NCBI GenBank assembly: GCA_018396675.1
Contig: JAGTQX010000003.1
Span: forward strand, 186,001-250,000
DNA from: Candidatus Bathyarchaeota archaeon
GTDB lineage: Archaea > Thermoproteota > Bathyarchaeia > Bathyarchaeales > Bathycorpusculaceae
Length of the DNA: 64,000 bases
Direction of reading: 5' to 3'
Below are positions 8,749-12,222 of this stretch, piece after piece. Within the stretch, counting starts at the first letter, position 1. Each line of letters opens with the position of its first letter. The notes below the pieces were generated by a model. That model searched no databases, was not told the DNA's origin, and saw only the letters and a program-made list of their open reading frames with translations. The position numbers and the translations under genes are program-made.

Positions 8749-8910
8749 TTAAGTTTGTGTCGCTCTCTCTTGTATCAGTATAATTATGCCAACAATAGCC
8801 ATAAGTGCAAACAGAACTAGACCTAATGTTCTTTGGAATATTAGGTTTATCAACGCTCCAGAAACACCGAGGGCAATCATAGATAAAGCAAGTCCTTTTG
8901 ACTTCCGCAT
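8749..8910 (-). CDS. Small two-span membrane protein, 53 residues
   Basis: An open frame starts with MRKSKGLALSMIALGVSGAL and continues through two hydrophobic segments (about residues 6-24 and 28-47) separated by NLIFQRTLG, ending in the polar tail QERATQT. It is the last gene of the three-gene operon inside the putative island, 47 bases after the preceding stop. A weak GTGA element lies upstream of the ATG. The alternating hydrophobic pattern and positive-inside N-terminus support a real gene. A role as an immunity or accessory peptide to the cysteine-rich protein is a guess from position only. Confidence 0.5.
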   Translation of the reverse strand: MRKSKGLALSMIALGVSGALINLIFQRTLGLVLFALMAIVGIIILIQERATQT

Positions 8911-8957: not shown

Positions 8958-9410
8958 CTAATGGTTCTTGAATGGAGGATGGAAATTTTTTCTTTTACCA
9001 ATTAGGTATCCGATGAATCCACCTATAGTTGGTGCTATGATTAGGTTGAAGATTATTGCTGGCCATGTTCCAATAAGGTTCGGTAATGATTCTAGCCCTA
9101 AAGCTTTGGTTGTGAGGCCTATGCAAAAAAGGGAAACGACTATGCCTAAACATGCTCCTAGTAGTACATATGCTATTTTGTTTAGTGTTAATCGACCCTT
9201 TTCTGAGAGTACTTCTGTTCTTATGTGCTGTAGCATGTAACAAAAACCTATTATGAGAAAAATAGTGATAGTGTTGCGAAGCAGAGCGTAAAAGTTGATG
9301 TAGCCAAGAAAGTATAGCATGCAATTTACCGCGCTGAGAATTACAAAACCTATGGCCATCTCAATCCAGAAGCGTCGCCACCACTCTGGCTTTCTACCTT
9401 TAGCAAACAT
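8958..9410 (-). CDS. Four-span membrane protein of unknown function
   Basis: About 150 residues with a polar, aromatic N-terminus (KPEWWRRFW) and four predicted spans, two tight pairs; the second pair ends in PTIGGFIGYLIGKRKNF and a basic tail. No family was recognised. The ATG is chosen over a GTG three codons upstream because GAGGAG then sits eight bases away. It lies 51 bases after the rhodanese/cysteine-rich gene and before the 53-residue membrane protein, on the same strand. By analogy with bacteriocin loci it could confer immunity or export (inference). Confidence 0.6.
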   Translation of the reverse strand: MFAKGRKPEWWRRFWIEMAIGFVILSAVNCMLYFLGYINFYALLRNTITIFLIIGFCYMLQHIRTEVLSEKGRLTLNKIAYVLLGACLGIVVSLFCIGLTTKALGLESLPNLIGTWPAIIFNLIIAPTIGGFIGYLIGKRKNFHPPFKNH

Positions 9411-9461: not shown

Positions 9462-10811
9462 TCACGGACACCATCCGAGATATTCACAAACAGCAGCACA
9501 GCCAAGCGTCATGATGGGATCTGAATACGTCAATAGGTAAAGACAGATTGAACAAGCCAAGCCTACGGTGAAAAAGCATACAGCGATACAACCACCTCCT
9601 ATAGCGGCGGTACATCCAAGTTGACATGCAAAGCAGCTCCAGAAGTCATCCATTAAAACTGCGAAAATTCGCAACGCTTCTGTGTCGTAGTCCTGTAATT
9701 GGTCTTTGACGAGTTTAGATAAGTGCTTAGCTTCTTTTTCCATAGTGTAGTAGCCTTCTGTAAGTTGTATCAGCATTTCATCTCCGCTTTTCTCGTAGGT
9801 TTTACCTACTTTTTTGGCGATTTTGCCTAGGATGGCGTATTGCTGCGATAAAGTAATGGAAGAATTGAACTCAACAAACTCCAGTGATACGAGTTCAGAT
9901 TTGCCCGCAGGTGCATAATTCATGATCGTGAAGGAACTGTTGTAAGTTTCTGCGTCTTGAGGCGTGAGCGTTGTGTGTATGGTTAAGTTGTATTTCTCAT
10001 GTTGAACAATGTAGCTTAGGCTGTAGAATTGTAAGGATATGTCTTCCACCGCTATTTCTGTTGAGATGAACTTAGCCGTTCTGTTGGTTTTAGTGCTTGC
10101 CTCGTTATAATTCCACAGCAAAGTTTGGGTGACGAGCACCTCATAAGCTGTATCATTGGCTTCGTATGTTACAAGCGTTACCGTGCGTACTTCATCCTGC
10201 TCAAGCGTTGTAACCGCAATGTTTAAGGGTGTATTAGTGCTCGGAGGTTCTTGGTCTTGAGAACAGGATTGACAAACACAAGATGAGCCACTGGTTTGAT
10301 ATAGAAGTATGGGCTCTATGTTTGCCGATATATGTTTGCCAACAACGTTCACCGTAACATAGTGATAAGTCGTGTATATCGGGTGGCCTGCTTCTATCCA
10401 TGCGGTTATTCCGCCGAGCATGTTGTAGACTTTTGTGAAGCCGTTGCTGGCGAGAATTTGGCATGCTATCTGGCTTCTTGAACCAGCCTTACAGTAAACT
10501 ATTATTGGATCGTTCATATGCTCTTGCAGTTCGCCTATTCTATCCTCAAGCTCGTAAACGGGTATAAGAACAGCACTATATAAATGCCCGAGATTGTATT
10601 CGCTCTGGTTTCTAACATCCAAAACAAGGCTTACAGTGCCTTTCTTTATCATTTTGTAAGCTGCATCAACGCTTATGTCCTCGTAAGCTCCAGCCCCAGG
10701 CGCTTCAGCAAAAGCTACAGGCACTGCAACAAAAGCAAGCAACAACACAGCCACAAGACCAACAGCAATCAACCTCTGGCCACGCATCTCCAAAACAGAA
10801 CAGGCCTCCAC
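9462..10811 (-). CDS. Secreted rhodanese-domain protein with ten-cysteine halocin C8-like tail
   Basis: A 449-residue protein. Residues about 12-36 are a signal peptide or anchor ending in AFA. Residues 45-145 are a single rhodanese domain with active-site loop CKAGSR (C107-R112). C178, C180 and C183 form a CxCxxC motif. Residues about 190-390 are an N-glycosylation-rich, beta-strand then helical region with no recognised family. The last 57 residues hold ten cysteines (393, 396, 400, 408, 412, 420, 423, 438, 442, 448) set among Gly/Ala and hydrophobic residues, ending CEYLGWC. Halocin C8, a haloarchaeal bacteriocin, also has ten cysteines and is cut from the C-terminus of a larger precursor whose upstream part is its immunity protein. 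GTG start with GGGAGGTG five bases upstream. Head gene of the island operon. Confidence 0.65.
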   Translation of the reverse strand: MEACSVLEMRGQRLIAVGLVAVLLLAFVAVPVAFAEAPGAGAYEDISVDAAYKMIKKGTVSLVLDVRNQSEYNLGHLYSAVLIPVYELEDRIGELQEHMNDPIIVYCKAGSRSQIACQILASNGFTKVYNMLGGITAWIEAGHPIYTTYHYVTVNVVGKHISANIEPILLYQTSGSSCVCQSCSQDQEPPSTNTPLNIAVTTLEQDEVRTVTLVTYEANDTAYEVLVTQTLLWNYNEASTKTNRTAKFISTEIAVEDISLQFYSLSYIVQHEKYNLTIHTTLTPQDAETYNSSFTIMNYAPAGKSELVSLEFVEFNSSITLSQQYAILGKIAKKVGKTYEKSGDEMLIQLTEGYYTMEKEAKHLSKLVKDQLQDYDTEALRIFAVLMDDFWSCFACQLGCTAAIGGGCIAVCFFTVGLACSICLYLLTYSDPIMTLGCAAVCEYLGWCP

Positions 10812-10873
10812 CCATACACCTCCCTTTCAACTATAGAGGTGCAACCTTTGGTCCTAAAATTCTGTTTTTTTTC

Positions 10874-10886
10874 CGTATATAAAACT
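10874..10886 (-). promoter_or_regulatory. Strong TATA promoter of the island operon
   Basis: On the minus strand GTTTTATATACG is a near-ideal archaeal TATA box. Transcription about 26 bases on would give a leader of roughly 40 bases containing the GGGAGGTG ribosome binding site. It lies inside the putative island, so the operon carries its own promoter. Confidence 0.6.
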
Positions 10887-10972
10887 TTTGTAACCAAAAA
10901 TTAAACAAAACAACCTATTCACGTTCTAGCATAATTTTTTGGATTGGATTCACTTAATTTTTTAATTGCATA

Positions 10973-11532: not shown

Positions 11533-12222
11533 TTGCTTCCGCTGAAGGATTTGAACCGTCCATGGAGAAAACCGCACGTAAACCGTATGCTGCTAATCAT
11601 AAACATTGTTGTTTTTGCGGTTTATTGGTTGTCTGCGAATGGAATCTTGTTTTCGCAAAGGATTGCGGCGGTAATTGAGGATAGGTTTACGATGTTTCCT
11701 TTGTACGTCGTTCATGGGCAGAGGCTTTACACGTTGGTGACTTCAATGTTTATGCATGCAAGCTGGCTTCACCTTTTGGGAAACATGCTTTATCTTTACA
11801 TTTTTGGCGATAATGTTGAGGATGTTTTTGGCCATTTGGGTTATCTTGTTTTTTACATTTTTTGCGGTTTAGCTGCAGCTTTCACACATATATTAAGCAT
11901 ATATTGGGGGCTGACGTTTCCAGCGGATTTAAGCGTCGGCGTTGTTGGTGCTTCTGGAGCAATTTCCGGTGTTTTGGGGGCATATTTTGTGCTTTACCCG
12001 AAAGCAAAAATTTTGACGCTTGTTACGTATTTTATATTGCCGATACCCGCGGTTATTCTTTTAGGCTTTTGGTTTTTGATGCAGTGGCTTTACGGGTTTT
12101 TTGATGTTTACAGTGGAGTTGCTTACTGGGCGCATATTGGCGGTTTCATAGCTGGAATGATTTTGGCATTAGCGTTTGGGCTTCAGAGAAAGAAGATGCG
12201 GGAAACACGGCTTCGCTTTTAA
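11533..12222 (+). CDS. Rhomboid-family intramembrane serine protease
   Basis: Cleaves transmembrane substrates within the lipid bilayer. The catalytic serine S141 lies in GASGAISG and the partner histidine H201 in AHIGGF; the HASWLHLLGNMLYL segment (H75, H80, N84) is the conserved oxyanion-side helix. At 229 residues with six or seven spans it is a minimal rhomboid. The start is TTG with GAGGT six bases upstream. No substrate is obvious, though many single-span surface proteins are encoded in this window. Confidence 0.9.
   Translation: MLPLKDLNRPWRKPHVNRMLLIINIVVFAVYWLSANGILFSQRIAAVIEDRFTMFPLYVVHGQRLYTLVTSMFMHASWLHLLGNMLYLYIFGDNVEDVFGHLGYLVFYIFCGLAAAFTHILSIYWGLTFPADLSVGVVGASGAISGVLGAYFVLYPKAKILTLVTYFILPIPAVILLGFWFLMQWLYGFFDVYSGVAYWAHIGGFIAGMILALAFGLQRKKMRETRLRF

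Follow-up and report, generated by a model that had tools for sequence, protein, structure and literature searches.

A rhodanese-bearing precursor with an exchangeable cysteine-rich tail, a candidate peptide antimicrobial of Bathyarchaeia

In the window analyzed here (64,000 nucleotides of a bathyarchaeon, from an archaeal assembly of 1.3 Mb), the minus-strand gene at 9462..10811 encodes a 449-aa protein that is probably a secreted bacteriocin-like antimicrobial precursor, in which the tail would act as the toxin and the membrane protein encoded downstream would provide immunity. The domain layout, the modular tails, the conserved cysteines and the linkage to the membrane gene are computed properties of this precursor. 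An initial annotation had likewise read the gene as a C-terminal peptide-antimicrobial precursor; tail swapping, conservation of cysteines only and the downstream membrane gene speak for that part of the proposal, whereas the halocin C8 kinship attached to it was not established. To our knowledge, few archaeal antimicrobials have been described, and almost none come from uncultured Thermoproteota such as Bathyarchaeia.

Layout of the precursor gene and its rhodanese module

The precursor gene, whose extent agrees with relatives of the same architecture, begins with GTG, and a ribosome-binding site GGGAGGTG (10817..10824, minus strand) lies 5 nt before this start; translation could alternatively begin at the in-frame ATG at 10787. 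Upstream of GGGAGGTG there is a candidate TATA-like promoter element, the TTTTATATACGG region (10874..10887, minus strand). The export signal of the initial annotation corresponds to a predicted Sec-type signal peptide at aa 1-36 (10704..10811, minus strand), with a hydrophobic stretch at aa ~15-30 followed by AFA|EA, and residues 4-33 are helical in the structure model. The DNA of the promoter, leader and signal peptide recurs at a second site of the same genome (L093 5426-5585, G000:C12:285425-285584), where it is 84% conserved over 162 bp, and after the copied leader comes another reading frame, which is broken (L093 6091-6468) and finishes in a hydrophobic stretch rich in Gly and Ala. This duplicate leader suggests that cassettes are exchanged at the signal-peptide end as well. 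Upstream of the precursor and divergent from it, the window also carries a rhomboid-like membrane protease gene (11533-12222); we looked for such a gene beside the other family loci and found no general link to the precursors.

The rhodanese domain occupies aa 48-140 (10392..10670, minus strand) and matches PF00581 with E 1.3e-18 (67.7 bits against a cut-off of 22.2), with Foldseek rhodanese matches of E down to 8.6e-10. It is the single rhodanese domain of the precursor, and its active-site loop CKAGSR at aa 107-112 (10476..10493, minus strand; CKAGSRS at aa 107-113) is intact, as had been claimed. Next comes the middle domain, a putative pro-domain delimited with the A1 profile at aa 147-389 (9645..10373, minus strand); at ~243 aa it agrees with the "about 200 residues" of the initial annotation, and the CxCxxC motif noted there is found as CVCQSC at aa 178-183 (10263..10280, minus strand), in a flexible loop of the modeled domain. 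The CxxC is present in most members having a full-length middle domain. In the AlphaFold2 models, which were built on shallow alignments, the rhodanese and middle domains mostly reach pLDDT 80-98 and the CxxC loop is disordered; the middle domain is composed of antiparallel β strands and a helical hairpin. It has no family match in Pfam or NCBIfam and no match among PDB sequences, and the Foldseek search of the PDB with middle domain and tail gave no match with E <= 0.001; to judge from the model, the middle domain may be a new fold. A single match in a viral fold library (TM 0.19) was rejected, no relatives of the family turned up in the viral contigs searched, and PADLOC and PHROGs gave no matches.

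The rhodanese module at the N terminus is optional. It is missing from most family members outside Bathyarchaeia, and the active-site cysteine is retained in every rhodanese-bearing member scored except L109, where serine replaces it (IVYSKSGYRS). In the same archaeal order, many genomes also encode exported rhodaneses with an intact cysteine loop that are joined to secreted NosD/beta-helix proteins; such fusions were recorded at L012-L020 and L031, the first of which combines PF05048 (NosD) with PF13229. Since the module is optional, lacks its catalytic cysteine in L109 and also precedes unrelated beta-helix proteins, the idea that it aids maturation gained no support beyond the presence of the domain, and a redox or persulfide role is one that we only infer. 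At the rhodanese-less loci L078 and L079, the divergent upstream neighbor has many membrane spans and a thioredoxin-like FFYxPSGCxxCDxAKP region, whose Pfam match stays below the cut-off; perhaps this neighbor takes the place of the rhodanese.

Cysteine-rich tails on a patchily distributed carrier

The tail, a type A candidate toxin peptide judged from its sequence and relatives, covers aa 390-449 (9465..9644, minus strand). In its 60 aa it holds the ten cysteines given by the initial annotation, but its terminus reads CEYLGWCP, one proline beyond the CEYLGWC stated there. Ten cysteines within 58 aa are the densest among the 58 ORFs of at least 150 aa in the window (mean Cys content 1.4%). Both L072 and L074 keep all ten with nearly unchanged spacing at a tail identity of just 39-46%, and the cysteine pattern is therefore not a matter of chance. 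Aligning the eight type A tails (window, L072, L074, L077, L080, L082, L084 and L088) leaves five invariant columns, every one a cysteine.

Other members carry other tails: type B in L073, L076a and L110; type C in L083, L112, L116, L150 and, more remotely, L111, on strongly diverged carriers; type D in L076b and L117; and type E in L115, L118, L147 and L156. The tails are about 80-90% hydrophobic and have no obvious metal-site histidines. Cys-poor, Gly/Ala-rich hydrophobic tails occur in L114 (5325-6191), L119 (4433-5617), L120 (4394-5440) and L125 (3970-5151), and a link of these four to sulfolobicins is possible. In L082, L084, L085, L087, L090 and L091 a beta-rich domain without a Pfam match lies beyond the Cys-rich tail, which means that the tail is not always terminal; in L081 the Cys-rich segment is placed after such a domain.

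Structure prediction of the tail, for which five disulfides had been anticipated, returned a helical model of low confidence (AlphaFold2, pLDDT below about 67); with a model this poor, the disulfides and the fold of the tail are putative. A disulfide pairing deduced from the joint loss of C3 and C8 in L080, L082 and L084 was dropped because L088 lacks C1 and C8 instead. A RING-like zinc-finger match to the tail alone (E 0.0076, 16.4 bits, cut-off 27), of the metal-binding kind that the initial annotation had named as refuting, was rejected as an effect of composition. No cleavage motif was identified.

The identities of tails and middle domains do not run together. Tail identity is 62% and middle-domain identity 24% between L076b and L117, 51% and 24% between L083 and L112, and 49% and 28% between L083 and L150; conversely, the middle domains of L071 and L073 are 66% identical (A1) and their tails unrelated. 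This speaks for an exchange of the tail as a unit. The family pairs a conserved carrier with an exchangeable C-terminal part, a trait of polymorphic toxins.

A search with the whole protein in 101 related genomes gave two kinds of match, namely those sharing the architecture and those sharing the exported rhodanese alone. Rhodanese, middle domain and Cys-rich tail occur together in L003-L010 and L029, which are the homologs that the initial annotation had suggested looking for; L011 and L030 have middle domain and tail without rhodanese. The A1 profile of the middle domain is positive in 17 of the 257 genomes of the class and also detects members in further families within the phylum; the broader profile A5 is positive in 25 of the 398 genomes of the phylum. 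Altogether, the middle domain with a Cys-rich tail behind it was seen at more than 25 loci across Thermoproteota, in a patchy distribution. The named contigs carrying family members belong to Candidatus Bathyarchaeota; among them, JARYLR010000046.1 encodes the same family protein as contig G002:C40. Several family genes are interrupted, L073 (5837-7191) by a frame change after an A7 run and L110 (4052-5380) by one in-frame TAA, and split copies exist in other assemblies (L086, L089, L092); decay, sequencing error and phase variation are possible causes of the interruptions. In the literature covered, we found no description of the family, part of which may already be known.

The downstream membrane gene

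Directly downstream of the precursor (8958..9410, minus strand) lies the gene of a candidate immunity protein of 150 aa, predicted to cross the membrane about four times; its ATG at 9410 is preceded by an AGAGGAG site. A second small ORF with two spans follows further downstream (8749..8910, minus strand) and is a doubtful member. We counted as a neighbor any gene on the same strand within a gap of <= 120 bp that encodes <= 235 aa with >= 2 spans by hydropathy. By this rule, 24 of the 37 family genes are followed by a small multi-span neighbor, as are 18 of the 245 other genes in these stretches (Fisher p 1.3e-14, for loci that are related and thus incompletely independent); the first count becomes 23 of 36 once a duplicate is removed, because the window gene and L071 are one and the same. 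None of the five testable rhodanese-beta-helix genes, which served as controls, has such a neighbor, and a downstream membrane gene follows four of the five halocin C8-domain genes of Sulfolobales.

The family of the window's 150-aa protein (A2) is found directly downstream of the type A precursors L071, L072, L074, L077 and L080, and near some other precursors it is fused to an HTH domain. Its best matches in the 101 related genomes are the genes adjoining these precursors. The downstream families differ by tail type; beyond relatedness, however, the co-segregation of tail and downstream gene is weak (partial rank Mantel 0.14, p 0.02; converse 0.20, p 0.02). By analogy, bacteriocins and polymorphic toxins are arranged with their immunity genes in the way that the precursor is with the small membrane gene. 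One genome (G393) has two precursor copies (L115, L156), and behind each copy lie several small membrane genes, all from a single family, which are candidate paralogous immunity genes.

Proposed mode of action, rival readings and known systems

What we infer for the precursor, from export and disulfides to cleavage, killing, immunity and the part played by the rhodanese, is as follows. The signal peptide would direct the export of the precursor, with the middle domain serving as a conserved carrier or pro-domain; outside the cell, the Cys-rich and strongly hydrophobic tail would fold around its disulfides and would then be released, probably by cleavage just before DDFWSC. The freed tail would be a membrane-active toxin against competitors, and the small membrane protein encoded downstream would be the immunity protein of the producer. 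Tails would be swapped among precursors as warheads, in the manner of polymorphic toxins, and Bathyarchaeia would have added an exported rhodanese at the N terminus, which perhaps handles thiols or persulfides during disulfide formation. An extended version of this reading, which we hold only tentatively and consider more doubtful than likely, takes the family for an unrecognized, phylum-wide class of Thermoproteota antimicrobials with an undescribed pro-domain, several structurally unrelated disulfide-rich peptides that are exchanged horizontally, a small membrane immunity protein for each of them and, in Bathyarchaeia, an exported rhodanese assisting the peptide's thiol or persulfide chemistry. 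The middle-domain profiles A1 and A5 can be used to collect disulfide-rich archaeal peptides together with candidate immunity proteins, which the sequence similarity of the tails alone does not allow. If the rhodanese does contribute to maturation, the precursor would, unusually, carry its own redox helper.

The precursor might instead descend from the halocin C8 system, with a tail remotely homologous to halocin C8, a middle domain that is the fused immunity region and the rhodanese as an extra module. The ten cysteines and the closing C-x5-C, both as in halocin C8, fit this view, and a ten-cysteine hydrophobic C-terminal peptide on a predicted exported precursor, conserved in relatives, is a halocin C8-type trait that the family does have. 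The mature halocin C8 sequence that we used matches the halocin C8-like domain TIGR04449 of NCBIfam at 61.5 bits, and the curated cut-off of this model is 24 bits. The last 60 residues of the window protein, which the initial annotation had expected to match, gave no hit at E <= 1, and no sequence exceeds the cut-off among the genomes of the order or among the family members. Below the cut-off, the best match in the family is the alignment of the whole model to the L091 tail (19.4 bits with E 0.0031 in one search, E 0.032 in another), and L117 aligns weakly (E 0.91). A profile of eight halocin-domain sequences scores the window tail at 17.9 bits, above 997 of 1000 Cys-preserving shuffles (3 of 1000 reach that score), but with the four haloarchaeal sequences only, 139 of 1000 shuffles reach the score of the window tail and the signal is gone; tails of types B, C and E do no better than shuffles. 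When all tails were compared with the eight sequences by HHalign, the result was not significant (at best 5% probability, over the last 17 columns only), and for the HalI regions HHalign gave E 0.52 against A1 and 0.044 against A5, with a probability of up to 1.2%, so no relation of the middle domain to HalI is detectable. With signals that are only weak and model dependent, we do not claim membership in the halocin C8 family; we consider the shared descent unlikely, and it is plausible that the precursor works like the halocin C8 precursor.

Three further readings do without a toxin. The protein could be an extracellular handler of thiols or sulfur, in which rhodanese, CxxC and tail form a surface persulfide or metal relay. 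The rhodanese loop, intact in most members, and the CxxC of the middle domain would suit such a relay, as would the thioredoxin-like membrane protein (Pfam match below cut-off) beside two rhodanese-less loci. However, most members outside Bathyarchaeia have no rhodanese, L109 has no catalytic cysteine, and the wholesale differences between the tails of close relatives are incompatible with a conserved catalytic relay, nor does such a relay fit tails that are about 80-90% hydrophobic and lack obvious metal-site histidines; we regard it as quite unlikely. A surface protein whose tail is embedded in the membrane or covers it, as an anchor or in the manner of a hydrophobin, with the membrane protein as its partner and with tail diversity as evasion of viruses or predators, seems an improbable reading too: the strong hydrophobicity, the mostly helical tail models, the membrane partner gene and the extra extracellular beta-rich domains of several members agree with it, but an anchor needs no conserved cysteines, which are yet the sole invariant residues of the type A tails, and near-identical tails sit on diverged carriers in distant families. 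Finally, tail and membrane protein could be a ligand and its own receptor in contact-dependent recognition or signaling rather than toxin and immunity protein. A variable ligand adjoining a membrane protein would be expected of such a pair, and the HTH domain on a nearby membrane protein in L076, L082, L084 and L088 suggests sensing; most adjacent proteins, however, lack HTH and, being small with several spans, resemble the immunity proteins of bacteriocins, and we think this reading very unlikely.

Taken as an antimicrobial precursor, the protein can be set beside several known systems. The precursor of halocin C8 (halC8) is similar in being exported, in its hydrophobic ten-Cys C-terminal peptide with a C-x5-C end and in its larger conserved N-terminal part, and the halocin C8-domain proteins of Sulfolobales resemble it in their downstream membrane gene. 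It differs from halocin C8 in that its tail is not detected by TIGR04449 and has another cysteine spacing, in its N-terminal rhodanese and in a middle domain unrelated to HalI by HHalign. Immunity for halocin C8 is reported to reside within the same gene (Sun 2005, as cited in PMC8628083), whereas here a separate gene is the candidate. The secreted rhodanese-beta-helix (NosD-like) proteins of the same order share the type of exported N-terminal rhodanese with its intact loop, but they end in a PF05048/PF13229 beta-helix and, in the testable cases, have no small downstream membrane gene.

SSV9 B310 and other fusellovirus toxins are alike in having a signal peptide, a length of about 300-450 aa, variable alleles and a small multi-span gene directly downstream. 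For SSV9 B310, a proven toxin, the downstream transmembrane gene lies on the same transcript and its type follows the toxin allele (PMC8628083); in the SSV system, protection came from the toxin itself and the downstream gene gave none (PMC8628083, PMC13431529). The toxins SSV1 a291, SSV9 B310 and SSV10 ORF 299 have a beta-glucanase-like hydrolase fold (PMC13431529), whereas middle domain and tail have no PDB match with E <= 0.001 here and the variable part of our family is the Cys-rich tail. Unlike bacterial polymorphic toxins, the family carries a short disulfide-type peptide in place of an enzyme domain and comes without a known secretion apparatus or pre-toxin domain, Pfam finding the rhodanese alone; what it has in common with them is the conserved carrier, the exchangeable C-terminal part and the downstream immunity candidate.
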